This document shows positions 196 through 4,326 of a stretch of DNA of 42,478 nucleotides, in pieces (within the stretch, counting starts at the first letter, position 1; each line of letters starts with the position of its first letter). The stretch lies in assembly GCA_902774905.1 (NCBI GenBank), contig CACYKF010000012.1, forward strand, positions 1 through 42,478. Direction: 5' to 3'. The notes beneath the pieces are model-generated. The model did no database searches, was not told where the DNA came from, and saw only the letters and a program-made list of their open reading frames with translations. The translations under genes and the position numbers were made by a program. This stretch comes from an uncultured bacterium. GTDB taxonomy: Bacteria > Cyanobacteriota > Vampirovibrionia > Gastranaerophilales > Gastranaerophilaceae.

Positions 196-432
196 ATGAA
201 ACACGAAATAAAAGTTTGTATGGGAAGTTCTTGTTTTGCAAGAGGGAACATTAATAATCTTGAATACATAGAAAATTTTATCAAAGACAACAATCTTGAT
301 ACAGAACTTGATTTGGTCGGTTCTCATTGTCAAAATAAATGTGAAAACGGACCACACATTACTGTTGACGGAAAAGATTATGATGAAGTCGATGAAAACA
401 AATTGAAAAATATTCTTGACGGATTATTATAA
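196..432 (+). CDS. Thioredoxin-like [2Fe-2S] ferredoxin (NuoE C-terminal-like), 78 aa
   Basis: A small ferredoxin of the thioredoxin-fold type, as found at the C-terminus of NuoE/HydC. Four cysteines have the right layout for one 2Fe-2S cluster: C8 and C13 (CMGSSC), then C45 and C49 (CQNKC). The family normally passes single electrons between Fe-S proteins. The start has a purine-rich ribosome site (GGATAGGAAG) just upstream. The hydrogenase gene follows after 30 bp on the same strand, and a paralogue (84 aa, 3355-3609) closes the operon, so it probably wires the sensory hydrogenase. That pairing is inferred from context. Which protein it actually donates to or accepts from cannot be seen. 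Confidence 0.85.
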   Translation: MKHEIKVCMGSSCFARGNINNLEYIENFIKDNNLDTELDLVGSHCQNKCENGPHITVDGKDYDEVDENKLKNILDGLL

Positions 433-462
433 ATATATATATTGATTATTAGGGGTTAAGAT

Positions 463-2181
463 ATGACAAAACAGCATCCGGTTTATACTTTAACAAACGA
501 ATGTAAAGACTGCTACAAATGTGTCAGGCATTGTCCTGTAAAAGCAATCAAGATAGAAAACGATCACGCATCTGTTATTGCGGAAAAATGTATTTCCTGC
601 GGACACTGCGTTCAGGTTTGTCCGACAAATGCAAAATGCGTAAGGACGGATTTGGAAAAAGTCAAAAATTTATTTATAGCCAAAAAAGATGTTTATGTTT
701 CTCTTGCTCCATCCTGGCGTTCGGTTTTTGAAAATTCTGCAAAAAAAATGATTGCCGTACTAAAAAAATTAGGATTCAAAGAGGTATCGGAAACAGCGTT
801 AGGCGCGCAAGAAGTTTCTATACATGACACTGAAATTTTAAATAAAATGGAAAAGGGACTTCTAATTTCAAGTGCTTGTCCTGTAATCGTAGATTATATA
901 AGGCTCTATAAACCGGAGTTTGCAAAATACATAACACCTGTCGGTTCACCTGCAAAAACGCATGCAAAAATGTTGAAAAATATTTACGGCAATGATATTG
1001 CCGTTGTATTTATCGGGCCATGTATAGGAAAGAAAAATGAAGCAGATGAAGATGACGGACTTATTGATGTCTCAATAACATTCGAAGAACTCAAATATTG
1101 GATAGCAGATGAAATCGGAGATATTTCGAGTATTAAGAGAGAAAATGATTACGAGTTTGTTCCATATAGTGCCCACGAAGGTACTTTATACCCTATCAAT
1201 GGCGGAATGAATGAAACAATTCGTAAAGTAGGAATTAAACCTGAAGTTCAACTAATGGAAATCTGCACAATTCCCGCATTTGAAAAAGCATTAGAAAATC
1301 TTGACCCTGAAAAACTTGCTATGCCTGTCTTTGTAGAGGCTTTGGCTTGCGATTCGGGTTGTATAACAGGTCCCTGCATAGCATCAAATAAAGCAAGTAT
1401 CAGTTCTATTTCGGATGTAATGTATAAGGTTAAAGTTCGTGATAATATTCCGCAACAGGCAACAACCGTTGTAGAGTGTAAGTATGAGCCAAAGGGAGTC
1501 GTAAATTCCCGTTATACGCTTGAGGAAATTAAATCAGCACTCAAAAAAATCGGAAAACACACAGATGAAGATGAACTAAACTGCGGAGGCTGCGGTTACA
1601 GTTCATGCAGAGAACTTGCAGTTGCGTTGTTAGACGGTGTTGCAGAAACCTCAATGTGTGTTTCTTATATGAGAAAAATTGCAATGAGAAAAGCCGCGGC
1701 GATGCTTCGTTGTATGCCATCTGCTATTGTTATGGTTGATAATAATATGAATATCCTTGAAGCAAACGACAGTTTTATGAAAATGTTTGCAGGAGAAATG
1801 TACGAAATATTTAAATCAAGACCTGACGGAATGACAGGAGCAGCGTTAGACAGAATCGTTGATTTTTCGGATTTGTTTGCAACAATTCTTAAAACAGGAA
1901 AAGAATTGCACAAGGAACATTATGCAATAAAAGACCGTTTGTATGATATAAATGTATTCACAATAGAAGAGAACGAAATTGTCGGTGCGGTTATAACAGA
2001 TGTAACCCAAACAGAAACAACAAGGGAAAAAATTTCCGAAAAAGCAAGAGAAGTTATTTCCAAAAATATTTCTATTGTTCAAGAAATCGCCTGCCTGTTG
2101 GGGGAACACATGGTTGAAACCGAAACGCTTTTAAACTCTATTGCGAACGATTATGACGACAAATCTGAAAGTGAAAAGTAA
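463..2181 (+). CDS. Sensory [FeFe] hydrogenase (HydS/group C type) with 4Fe-4S domain and PAS domain, 572 aa
   Basis: Domain order: a two-cluster ferredoxin domain (C14, C17, C20, C24 and C43, C46, C49, C53), the H-cluster domain (about 75-330), a small Fe-S domain with CGGCGYSSC (374-382) and C399, then a PAS domain (about 411-520) and a helical tail. The three H-cluster signatures are present but altered: L1 is SSACP (A138-C139), L2 is PCIGKKNE (186-193), L3 is EALACDSGC (292-300) followed by GPC. Catalytic enzymes carry two cysteines in L1, the first relaying protons. Here it is alanine, as I recall for Thermotoga HydS, so a slow sensor enzyme is more likely than a bulk H2 producer. PAS and the phosphatase gene downstream support signalling. 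The stop overlaps the next start by one base (TAATG), implying translational coupling. Confidence 0.9.
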   Translation: MTKQHPVYTLTNECKDCYKCVRHCPVKAIKIENDHASVIAEKCISCGHCVQVCPTNAKCVRTDLEKVKNLFIAKKDVYVSLAPSWRSVFENSAKKMIAVLKKLGFKEVSETALGAQEVSIHDTEILNKMEKGLLISSACPVIVDYIRLYKPEFAKYITPVGSPAKTHAKMLKNIYGNDIAVVFIGPCIGKKNEADEDDGLIDVSITFEELKYWIADEIGDISSIKRENDYEFVPYSAHEGTLYPINGGMNETIRKVGIKPEVQLMEICTIPAFEKALENLDPEKLAMPVFVEALACDSGCITGPCIASNKASISSISDVMYKVKVRDNIPQQATTVVECKYEPKGVVNSRYTLEEIKSALKKIGKHTDEDELNCGGCGYSSCRELAVALLDGVAETSMCVSYMRKIAMRKAAAMLRCMPSAIVMVDNNMNILEANDSFMKMFAGEMYEIFKSRPDGMTGAALDRIVDFSDLFATILKTGKELHKEHYAIKDRLYDINVFTIEENEIVGAVITDVTQTETTREKISEKAREVISKNISIVQEIACLLGEHMVETETLLNSIANDYDDKSESEK

Positions 2182-3344
2182 TGTTTATTGATATTGATTG
2201 CCACCAGATAAAAAAATACAATCAAAATGCTTTCGGGGATTATTTTGTATCAAAAAGATATCCTGATGAAGAAAGACTTATTGCTGTTTTATCAGACGGG
2301 TTAGGTTCGGGAATAAAAGCAAACATTTTATCCTGTATGACAGCAACAATGCTTTTGAGATTTGTCGAGGGCGATCAAATTCCTATTAAAGATGCGGCAG
2401 AAATAGTTATGAATTCGTTGCCGATATGTCAGGTCAGAAAAATCAGTTATTCTACTTTTTCTATCATAGATGTTAATGACGAAGGGCATGCAAAAATAGT
2501 TGAAGAAGGGAATCCTGACTTTTTATGGATTAGAAATGGCGAAGTAATGGAACCGCCTTATGAATCAATTCCGTCAAAAAATCACAAAAATCGTTGTATG
2601 AAAAGTTACAAGATCAAACTTGATTTGGGTGACAGATTGATATTTTGTTCTGACGGAATTACACAATGCGGATTAGGGAATGAAAAATTAAAACTCGGTT
2701 TACGCAGAAGCGGACTTATTAATCTTGTGTTGGAGAAGTTAAAACAAGATCCTGAAATTTCGAGTTCGGAATTATCTTCATACCTTGTAAAACAGGCAAG
2801 GAATATTGAAACCGACAGAAATCCGAAAGACGATATGTCTGCACTTGTATTGTACTGCAGAGAACCGAGAAAATCGCTTGTATTTACAGGACCACCGTTT
2901 AATCAGAAAAATGATGCGCAATACGCTCAAACATTTAAAGATTTCAAAGGGAAAAAAGCCATTTCCGGAGGGACAACGGCAAACCTTATTTCAAGAGAAT
3001 TAAATATCCCGATTACTATGGATACAACCATAAGTATCGGCAGACTTCCGTCCTGCTCTTATATGGAAGGTGTTGATTTAGTAACAGAGGGTATTTTGAC
3101 GCTTACCCAAACCCTTGAATATCTTGAATCAGGAGATTGGGATATTGACAATGCGGCAGGGAAGTTGGTAAAATTTTTGTTAGATAGCGACTGTATATAT
3201 TTTATGGTCGGAGCAAAACTCAATCAGGCTCACTATAATCCGAATATGCCGATTGAAATTGAAATCCGTAAAAACATAATCAAAAAAATGAAAAATGTTT
3301 TGCAGGACAAATATTACAAAAATGTAAGTGTACAGTATATATAG
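2181..3344 (+). CDS. SpoIIE-type PP2C serine phosphatase with unassigned C-terminal domain, 387 aa
   Basis: A metal-dependent PP2C phosphatase of the SpoIIE/RsbU class. Visible motifs: SDGLGSG (D39-G40), GNPDFLWIRNG, a second SDG (D158-G159) and the final metal-binding NPKDD (D217-D218). Residues from about 230 on form an extra domain containing GPPFNQKND and GGTTANLISREL that I cannot assign. Phosphatases of this class usually dephosphorylate an anti-sigma-factor antagonist or similar partner. The gene overlaps the hydrogenase stop codon by one base, so both are probably made in fixed ratio. This fits a model where H2 or redox state read by the hydrogenase-PAS protein changes phosphatase activity. 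No partner kinase or antagonist is encoded nearby, so the target is unknown. Confidence 0.85.
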   Translation: MFIDIDCHQIKKYNQNAFGDYFVSKRYPDEERLIAVLSDGLGSGIKANILSCMTATMLLRFVEGDQIPIKDAAEIVMNSLPICQVRKISYSTFSIIDVNDEGHAKIVEEGNPDFLWIRNGEVMEPPYESIPSKNHKNRCMKSYKIKLDLGDRLIFCSDGITQCGLGNEKLKLGLRRSGLINLVLEKLKQDPEISSSELSSYLVKQARNIETDRNPKDDMSALVLYCREPRKSLVFTGPPFNQKNDAQYAQTFKDFKGKKAISGGTTANLISRELNIPITMDTTISIGRLPSCSYMEGVDLVTEGILTLTQTLEYLESGDWDIDNAAGKLVKFLLDSDCIYFMVGAKLNQAHYNPNMPIEIEIRKNIIKKMKNVLQDKYYKNVSVQYI

Positions 3345-3354
3345 GAGTTAGAAA

Positions 3355-3609
3355 ATGGCTAAAGTTAATGTAAAAGTATGTTTGGGAACAACTTGTTTTG
3401 TAATGGGTTCATCAAATTTGCAGGAACTGATTGACCTTGTTCCAAAAAAATACGGTGAAGATGTGGAAGTTGCCGGCTCGCCATGTTTAGGTTTATGTTC
3501 AATTGACTGGGAATTTTCAAAAGCCCCTTATGTAAAAGTTAATGATGAAGTTATTAAAGAAGCAACGGTTGAAAAAGTTCTCGCTGCTATCGACAGAGAA
3601 CTGAAATAA
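3355..3609 (+). CDS. Thioredoxin-like [2Fe-2S] ferredoxin, 84 aa
   Basis: A second small thioredoxin-fold ferredoxin, paralogous to the 78-aa protein that opens the operon. The 2Fe-2S ligands are C9 and C14 (CLGTTC) and C44 and C48 (CLGLC). It begins 10 bp after the phosphatase stop behind a clear AGGAG, so it is part of the same transcript. NuoE-like proteins often accompany HydS/HydA-type hydrogenases. Two separate copies around one hydrogenase is less usual and suggests distinct electron input and output partners, which is inference. Confidence 0.85.
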   Translation: MAKVNVKVCLGTTCFVMGSSNLQELIDLVPKKYGEDVEVAGSPCLGLCSIDWEFSKAPYVKVNDEVIKEATVEKVLAAIDRELK

Positions 3610-3670
3610 GTTTTTTATAAAATAAGTTAACTATATGGGAGTTACCCCAAAAATAAGTTAAAATCAGCAC

Positions 3671-3722
3671 CCCTCCCTCACGAGGGAGGGAGAAATTTCA
3701 AATTGAACAGAATGTGAAATTT
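3671..3722. repeat. GC-rich palindrome of the dispersed CCCTCCC/GGGAGGG type, plus an AT-rich inverted repeat
   Basis: A 9-bp perfect stem, CCCTCCCTC/GAGGGAGGG (3671-3690), stands out in AT-rich DNA and is followed by an inverted repeat AAATTTCA/TGAAATTT (3693-3700 and 3715-3722). There is no U-tract directly after the first hairpin, so it is not an obvious terminator. It resembles the palindrome inside the helicase gene at 16347-16380, suggesting a dispersed repeat family. Confidence 0.6.
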
Positions 3723-3843: not shown

Positions 3844-3900
3844 ATAGCAAATTTTATTTTTACAGGCATTATTAATATCAAGTTTTACATGGAGATAATT

Positions 3901-4326
3901 ATGGAAATAGAACTCGGACCTTTTCCCAAATATGAAAATATAAGAAATAATGCATATTGGTCAAGAGTGCATATTGATTCATCTTTAAGAATTGATAATT
4001 CAGATATAGAAGAATACAAAGCGCATTTGAAAGATTGCAACGAAAACCCGACAATAGGTCTGCTTGCAAAAAGAAAATACATAACCCAAAAACCTATGAA
4101 TTATCCCGAATATGCACACCGTAACATGCGATATTTAGAAAGACAGCCTGTTATCAGTGAATTAAAAAAGGATTTAAAGTCCAAAATTAATACACTATAT
4201 CCTGACACAAAACACATCCGAGATTACATAATTAACAACGACAGAGTTACGCTTGATTTTGTTGAAAAACACAAAAAATATACCGCATTTAACAAATTGA
4301 TGATAATGCTGAAAAAAATAATATAA
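3901..4326 (+). CDS. Hypothetical protein, 141 aa
   Basis: I do not recognise this protein. It is soluble, highly charged and Lys/Asn/Tyr-rich, with no signal peptide, membrane segment or cysteine pair. The N-terminus has ELGPFPKYENIRNN and the C-terminus ends in a basic helix (MIMLKKII). An in-frame ATG lies 12 bp earlier at 3889, but the GGAG at 3891-3894 sits 6 bp before the ATG at 3901, so I prefer the later start. It is flanked by a terminator on the left and the gyrB promoter on the right, so it is probably a single-gene unit. Confidence 0.6.
   Translation: MEIELGPFPKYENIRNNAYWSRVHIDSSLRIDNSDIEEYKAHLKDCNENPTIGLLAKRKYITQKPMNYPEYAHRNMRYLERQPVISELKKDLKSKINTLYPDTKHIRDYIINNDRVTLDFVEKHKKYTAFNKLMIMLKKII

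Follow-up and report, generated by a model that had tools for sequence, protein, structure and literature searches.

A phosphatase gene adjoining the gene of a PAS-fused sensory [FeFe] hydrogenase is an already known module type (HydDB C3, HfsB/HfsC and R. albus HydS; PMC5037454, PMC5707799, PMC11837493, PMC6776011). HydDB lists group C3 as 'phosphatase-linked (putative)', that is, a PAS-fused HydS beside a serine/threonine (Ser/Thr) phosphatase gene for which H2 sensing is proposed (PMC5037454). In the HfsABCD system of Thermoanaerobacterium, HfsB is a PAS hydrogenase, HfsC a serine phosphatase and HfsD a ferredoxin-linked hydrogenase, and the system is genetically regulatory for adhE and ethanol yield (PMC5707799, PMC11837493); the adhE transcript of T. 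saccharolyticum rose 2–3 fold when hfsA or hfsB was lost, and did not rise when hfsC or hfsD was lost (PMC5707799). In R. albus, the genes for a group C HydS and a putative Ser/Thr phosphatase share a transcript with those for a hydrogenase and an alcohol/aldehyde dehydrogenase (PMC6776011). Here we analyse a locus of this kind at positions 196–3609 of a 42,478-nucleotide stretch of DNA (the window) from an uncultured bacterium of the Gastranaerophilaceae (contig CACYKF010000012.1 of assembly GCA_902774905.1), where a PAS-fused HydS and a SpoIIE/PP2C-type phosphatase with an unassigned C-terminal domain (CTD) are encoded between two small iron–sulfur (FeS) proteins.

We propose, with a probability of about 0.62, that this locus is a phosphatase-linked sensory [FeFe] hydrogenase module of the HydDB C3/Hfs kind that would turn the H2 or redox state of the cell into a Ser/Thr dephosphorylation signal. 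The described systems differ from it in several respects. Compared with HfsABCD, to which we liken it by description and not by sequence, the window module includes a pair of [2Fe-2S] proteins, and the neighbouring enzyme in its relatives is a group B hydrogenase that in its own species is located elsewhere; in R. albus, likened on the same basis, the partner is a group A1 hydrogenase (PMC6776011). HydDB assigns no mechanism to group C3, and we found in its text no description of the CTD, a post-PAS helix or a link to [NiFe] hox operons (PMC5037454). In the open-access literature we found no description of the CTD as a universal part of these phosphatases, of a HydS-specific helix, or of an output half employed again alongside [NiFe] Hox in oxygenic cyanobacteria.

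Architecture of the locus and class of HydS

The module consists of four genes, all on the + strand, in the order fdxN (196..432), hydS (463..2181), the phosphatase gene (2181..3344) and fdxC (3355..3609). A 30-bp spacer separates fdxN from hydS, the stop of hydS and the start of the phosphatase gene overlap by 1 base, and 10 bp lie between the phosphatase gene and fdxC; this tight spacing, together with Shine–Dalgarno-like sequences (AGGGG/AGGAG/GGAAG), fits a single operon, which would be transcribed as a unit. The window is the entire contig, from an assembly of 1.99 Mb in 51 contigs, and since it begins only 195 bp upstream of fdxN, the operon may extend farther upstream. An earlier note on this DNA had proposed the same four-gene module, and all of its genes are indeed present, co-directional and tightly spaced. 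The note had also spoken of two small ferredoxins. Two small FeS proteins are present, but FdxN (78 residues; PF01257, E = 3.3e-10) and FdxC (84 residues; PF01257, E = 8e-8) are thioredoxin-like [2Fe-2S] proteins of the NuoE C-terminal type (2Fe-2S_thioredx in Pfam), with cysteines spaced C-x4-C and C-x3-C, and not classical ferredoxins.

HydS (572 residues, group C3-like by Pfam, alignment and tree) starts with a 2x[4Fe-4S] ferredoxin-like domain (residues 11–57, 493..633; Fer4_10, E = 3e-9), followed by the H-cluster domain (residues 75–304, 685..1374; PF02906, Fe_hyd_lg_C, E = 1e-44) and a C-terminal four-cysteine motif, C-x2-C-x4-C-x16-C (residues 374–399, 1582..1659; PF04060, E = 1e-9). 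In an alignment with 25 relatives, the H-cluster cysteines C139, C187 (L2) and C296/C300 (L3) and the C-terminal cluster cysteines C374, C377, C382 and C399 are invariant. Motif L1 reads S136-S137-A138-C139-P140; as the earlier note had stated, A138 replaces the proton-relay cysteine of group A enzymes, with the cluster cysteine C139 (codons of both residues at 874..879), L2 and L3 kept. Groups C and D characteristically have alanine at the relay position (PMC10407848, PMC8163306), and G185 occupies the position of CpI M353 in an alignment by motif, where the same residue is reported for T. maritima HydS (PMC8163306). Among the relatives the relay position is mostly alanine, with serine in L040, histidine in L121 and even cysteine in L115, so that A138 can serve as a marker but does not prove sensing. 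Low but measurable H2 turnover has been found for TmHydS and TamHydS (PMC8163306, PMC10407848), and restoring cysteine at the relay position of TmHydS lowers its activity (PMC10407848). The earlier claim that A138 points to sensing and not to bulk turnover therefore stands as far as class is concerned, the residue being typical of groups C and D and the protein lying outside groups A and B, whereas sensing is not established by A138 alone, given the turnover of TmHydS and TamHydS and the relative with cysteine.

The class of the protein was placed in a tree of 46 hydrogenases, in which the MCP-fused and the HATPase-linked, PAS-less reference groups were defined by architecture and groups A and B by NCBIfam, and which did not include the HydS of T. 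maritima, T. mathranii or R. albus. The window HydS falls in a clade of 23 phosphatase-linked HydS proteins (Shimodaira–Hasegawa-like approximate likelihood ratio test, 97) that is set apart from group A (99), group B (99), the MCP-fused forms (99) and the PAS-less, HATPase-linked, D-like forms (100). The earlier note had left its sensory assignment to such a tree, and there HydS lies outside both catalytic groups; membership of either was ruled out by this placement and by scores of 90 bits against a cut-off of 406 for TIGR02512 and 195.5 against 450 for TIGR04105. The protein combines the cluster cysteines of L1–L3, the replaced relay cysteine, the C-terminal Cx2Cx4Cx16C motif and the C-terminal PAS domain of group C (M2f/HydS), the last being the feature that distinguishes this group from group D, and the phosphatase gene linked to hydS is that of HydDB group C3, a placement made by architecture and our own tree.

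Two other architectures were seen among the hydrogenases compared. In HydDB C2-like, MCP-fused HydS from Treponema and one Desulfovibrio-titled bin (L177 990–3098, L178 995–3064, L179 523–2616 and L181 2169–3902), the H-domain and four-cysteine cluster are joined directly to a chemoreceptor (MCP) signalling domain with no PAS domain. At two Treponema D-like loci (L180 846–3152 and L182 119–2575), a weak DRTGG-type protein, an RsbW-like HATPase and a PAS-less HydS-like protein are encoded in one run.

The C-terminal part of HydS holds a PAS domain (residues about 413–516, 1699..2010) that is close to the Pfam thresholds (PAS_8, 21.6 bits against a cut-off of 21.8; PAS_9, 23.2 against 27) and aligns with free-standing PAS proteins of cyanobacteria whose scores clear those thresholds (E = 4e-13). 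After it, every aligned HydS ends in a helix-like stretch (residues about 520–561, 2020..2145, 'QEIACLLGEHMVETETLL') with the consensus 'QEIAxLLGExxxET', in which A543, L546, G547, E548 and L557 are invariant across 25 sequences. No such helix was found in the MCP-fused and D-like hydrogenases examined. Because it is conserved in HydS and absent from those forms, this coupler helix is a good candidate for a contact with the phosphatase, and an equally good or better one than the CTD.

The phosphatase and its C-terminal domain

The phosphatase (387 residues) gave a confident model as a whole (predicted local distance difference test, pLDDT, 90.4; predicted template modelling score, pTM, 0.84). 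Residues 1–229 (2181..2867) adopt a PP2C fold in this model, matched by Foldseek at E = 1e-12 and by VIA at Z 25.0 to 3pu9 (root mean square deviation 3.0, 219 residues aligned) and Z 23.7 to B. subtilis SpoIIE (5ucg), and residues 30–224 match SpoIIE in Pfam (E = 6e-14). A profile alignment to 3t91 matches the invariant residues D20, D39, D158 and D218 to the metal-site aspartates of SpoIIE; with the full metal site conserved, the phosphatase should be active. Its catalytic fold and metal-site residues are those of the SpoIIE/RsbU/RsbX phosphatases, from which it differs in carrying a CTD and in having its sensor on a separate protein.

The CTD (residues 230–387, 2868..3341) is unassigned, as the earlier note had said: it gave no Pfam match even at E = 5, none that was relevant in NCBIfam, and only chance-level sequence matches in the PDB (all above E = 0.3). 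Folded alone, it is modelled as a Rossmann-like alpha/beta domain (pLDDT 89, pTM 0.85) with the invariant motifs GPP (residues 9–11 in CTD numbering), GGTT (35–38), TEG (74–76) and VGxxxN (115–120), which sit just after strands 3–8, 30–34, 70–74 and 110–115. Strand ends are the usual ligand-binding place in Rossmann-like folds, and the position of the invariant motifs in the model thus suggests a ligand pocket. The closest folds are domains of the molybdopterin-oxidoreductase type, namely 6s6y_F (VIA Z 10.2, root mean square deviation 2.6, 113 residues aligned), FwdB (Z 8.5–8.8) and E. coli NuoG (8.4), followed at Z 6–7 by CARF and methylglyoxal synthase. Foldseek matches were weak (TM about 0.3–0.5) and no sequence link to molybdopterin-oxidoreductase-type domains was found; the model offers weak evidence of such kinship. 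We claim no family by fold, the matches being only generically Rossmann-like.

Linkage in relatives

In separate searches of one set of 79 relatives, the CTD and the C-terminal half of HydS turned up in exactly the same 46 genomes, and the remaining 33 had neither. Three additional HydS matches were fragments of 37–47 residues. At the level of single loci, hydS lies directly upstream of the phosphatase gene in 101 of 103, and the other two have hydS fragments at a contig end. The linkage of the two genes that the earlier note had assumed thus extends to their relatives. A small [2Fe-2S] protein is encoded upstream of hydS in 95 of the 98 loci that could be judged and downstream of the phosphatase gene in 88 of 101. 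At the end of a 700-residue HydA-type subunit of one relative (L040 7994–10096) we observed a domain resembling FdxN; the small [2Fe-2S] protein therefore occurs both free and fused.

In 68 of 98 loci a group B hydrogenase gene lies no more than 1.2 kb further downstream (the members tested score above the TIGR04105 cut-off of 450, with a value of 516 bits), and in several Gastranaerophilales and Alphaproteobacteria adhE and rex belong to the same gene run, with AdhE and Rex above their NCBIfam cut-offs. In a scan of named genomes, the titles of the best 80 of at least 586 matches include Gastranaerophilales, Alphaproteobacteria, Treponema, other Spirochaetes, Desulfovibrio, Planctomycetes, Lentisphaeria, Margulisbacteria and Hydrogenedentes. 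The group B hydrogenase of the window's own genome is encoded on another contig (C5; L146 7382–8851), and the module also stands without one in genomes G015 and G002; module and enzyme are therefore separated in this species group.

Linkage to [NiFe] hydrogenase genes in cyanobacteria

Of 244 genomes from the window's own phylum, 93 contained the CTD in a profile search; eight of these 93 carry PsbA-type reaction-centre genes and are thus oxygenic cyanobacteria. In four of these eight, from two families, the phosphatase gene stands at the end of a [NiFe] hox operon. The gene order at L191 (2412–9807), L197 and L198 is hoxE-hoxF-hoxU-hoxY-hoxH, a [2Fe-2S] protein with C-x4-C and C-x3-C, a stand-alone PAS protein and the phosphatase with its CTD; L194 (9003–18743) has the same arrangement plus hcp, with genes for a hydrogenase maturation protease, hypA, hypB and hypF downstream. 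A third family is represented by two genomes in which the phosphatase gene is followed by one for a hydrogenase maturation protease, in a stretch with no hox genes (L192 8852–10504, tested; L199 8565–10440, by near-identical sequence). No hydrogenase gene was seen near the phosphatase–CTD gene in G266 and G231.

The shared parts are homologous. The stand-alone PAS protein aligns with the C terminus of HydS (35% over 150 residues and E = 4e-27 with that of L040; E = 4e-13 with that of the window) and keeps 'QEIAGLLGETTAET' of the coupler helix. The phosphatases of hox operons and HydS loci align over their full length (33%, E = 1e-63), and the cyanobacterial ones group in a single clade (100/99) whose neighbours are Gastranaerophilales forms encoded alongside hydABC; this neighbouring position has moderate support (81/86), with the bootstrap not settled. 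Compared with the bidirectional [NiFe] Hox operon as described (PMC4264147, PMC2674450), the four loci share homologous [2Fe-2S], PAS–helix and phosphatase–CTD proteins with the window module but have no [FeFe] hydrogenase domain, their PAS protein standing alone. The hox operon of Synechocystis holds the unknown open reading frames Sll1222, Ssl2420 and Sll1225 (PMC4264147, PMC3933540), one of which also features in a paper on toxin–antitoxin systems; we make no claim that they are members of this set. Among open-access papers on cyanobacterial hox regions, the link goes unmentioned in PMC2674450, PMC3858816 and PMC5186783.

Linkage of the PAS–helix and phosphatase–CTD pair to [NiFe] Hox would make this output half independent of one hydrogenase class. 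We tentatively propose, at somewhat short of even odds, that the PAS–helix protein, the SpoIIE–CTD phosphatase and the thioredoxin-like [2Fe-2S] protein form a portable cassette that is not tied to one class of hydrogenase, being fused to the [FeFe] H-domain in gut and sediment anaerobes and free in cyanobacterial hox operons, in which the CTD would be a Rossmann-like ligand-binding domain joining a metabolite signal with the H2/ferredoxin redox state.

Mechanism and alternatives

In the mechanism that we favour, H2, or the ferredoxin pool by way of the two [2Fe-2S] proteins and the N-terminal [4Fe-4S] domain, would set the redox state of a slow H-cluster and of the C-terminal four-cysteine cluster. 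The PAS domain and its 'LLGE' helix would relay this state to the separately encoded phosphatase, a contact suggested by conservation and co-occurrence, and the phosphatase would in turn remove phosphate from a Ser/Thr phosphoprotein, its CTD perhaps binding either the sensor or a metabolite. One STAS protein, encoded beside a membrane PDC-HAMP-SpoIIE-HATPase protein (L145 6484–9134, contig C4), and no Hanks-type kinase were found in the own genome, which makes the STAS protein the leading substrate candidate. The two genes at L145 look like a self-contained partner-switch set and a possible meeting point with the HydS phosphatase. Because relatives carry the module next to genes for a group B hydrogenase, AdhE and Rex, the output may tune H2-producing and ethanol-forming fermentation, for which the Hfs system lends genetic support.

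Several observations weigh against this proposal. Since an H-cluster domain is missing from the cyanobacterial PAS protein, the phosphatase need not read H2 itself. In the own genome, the group B hydrogenase (C5), adhE (C4) and rex (C11) all lie away from the module, and the sole STAS protein found has its own partner phosphatase fusion and may for that reason not be the target. In HydS, the PAS domain is borderline in Pfam, A138 alone would not exclude turnover, the L1 relay residue varies, and the ties to H2 sensing and to the phosphatase are inferred from sequence.

The alternative that survives best, although we consider it unlikely, is that the cassette senses cellular redox (the ferredoxin or NAD(P)H poise) rather than H2 itself; the H-cluster and [2Fe-2S] proteins would then serve as electron inlets, and H2 would be one donor of several. 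The [2Fe-2S] protein accompanies the PAS–phosphatase pair at nearly all loci, including hox operons whose PAS protein lacks the H-cluster domain, and rex, encoding an NADH sensor, is a frequent neighbour. However, the H-cluster ligands are invariant in all 25 aligned HydS proteins, which a pure redox relay would not need, and regulation in R. albus tracks the H2 level (PMC6776011).

Less probable still is that the phosphatase acts directly on its neighbour enzymes (the group B hydrogenase, AdhE or Hox) as a post-translational switch outside any STAS/sigma-factor pathway. Phosphatases of the SpoIIE/RsbU/RsbX type, to which the catalytic domain belongs, are known to act on STAS proteins, and we know of no kinase that would phosphorylate these enzymes; tight linkage of the phosphatase to them speaks for direct action, as do the single STAS protein and the missing Hanks-type kinase of the own genome and the adhE transcript of T. 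saccharolyticum, which does not account for all activity changes (PMC5707799). That HydS is a working slow hydrogenase, as the measurable turnover of TmHydS and TamHydS would allow (PMC8163306, PMC10407848), with the phosphatase tied to it by shared transcription only, is very improbable in view of the perfect co-occurrence, the gene order fixed across several phyla, and the HydS-specific PAS domain and helix, which stay with the phosphatase even at loci that lack the hydrogenase domain.

Flanking sequence

A protein of 145 residues without a Pfam family is encoded at 3889–4326 of the window; among the relatives seen, only the closest (G015 and G040) have it beside the module. Downstream of fdxC lies a perfect inverted repeat, TCCCTCCCTCGTGAGGGAGGG (3669–3696), whose T-run fits a terminator on the minus strand only.

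Implications

The sensory label of group C and group D [FeFe] hydrogenases comes mainly from their domain content. Finding the same phosphatase–CTD and PAS–helix pair on another class of hydrogenase names a candidate conserved contact to test, that of the PAS–helix with the phosphatase, and the oxygenic cyanobacteria that carry the cassette are hosts in which this contact may be tested genetically. A regulation of H2 metabolism may thus be common to Cyanobacteria and their non-photosynthetic relatives, even though [FeFe] hydrogenases are reported to be absent from Cyanobacteria (PMC6349859).

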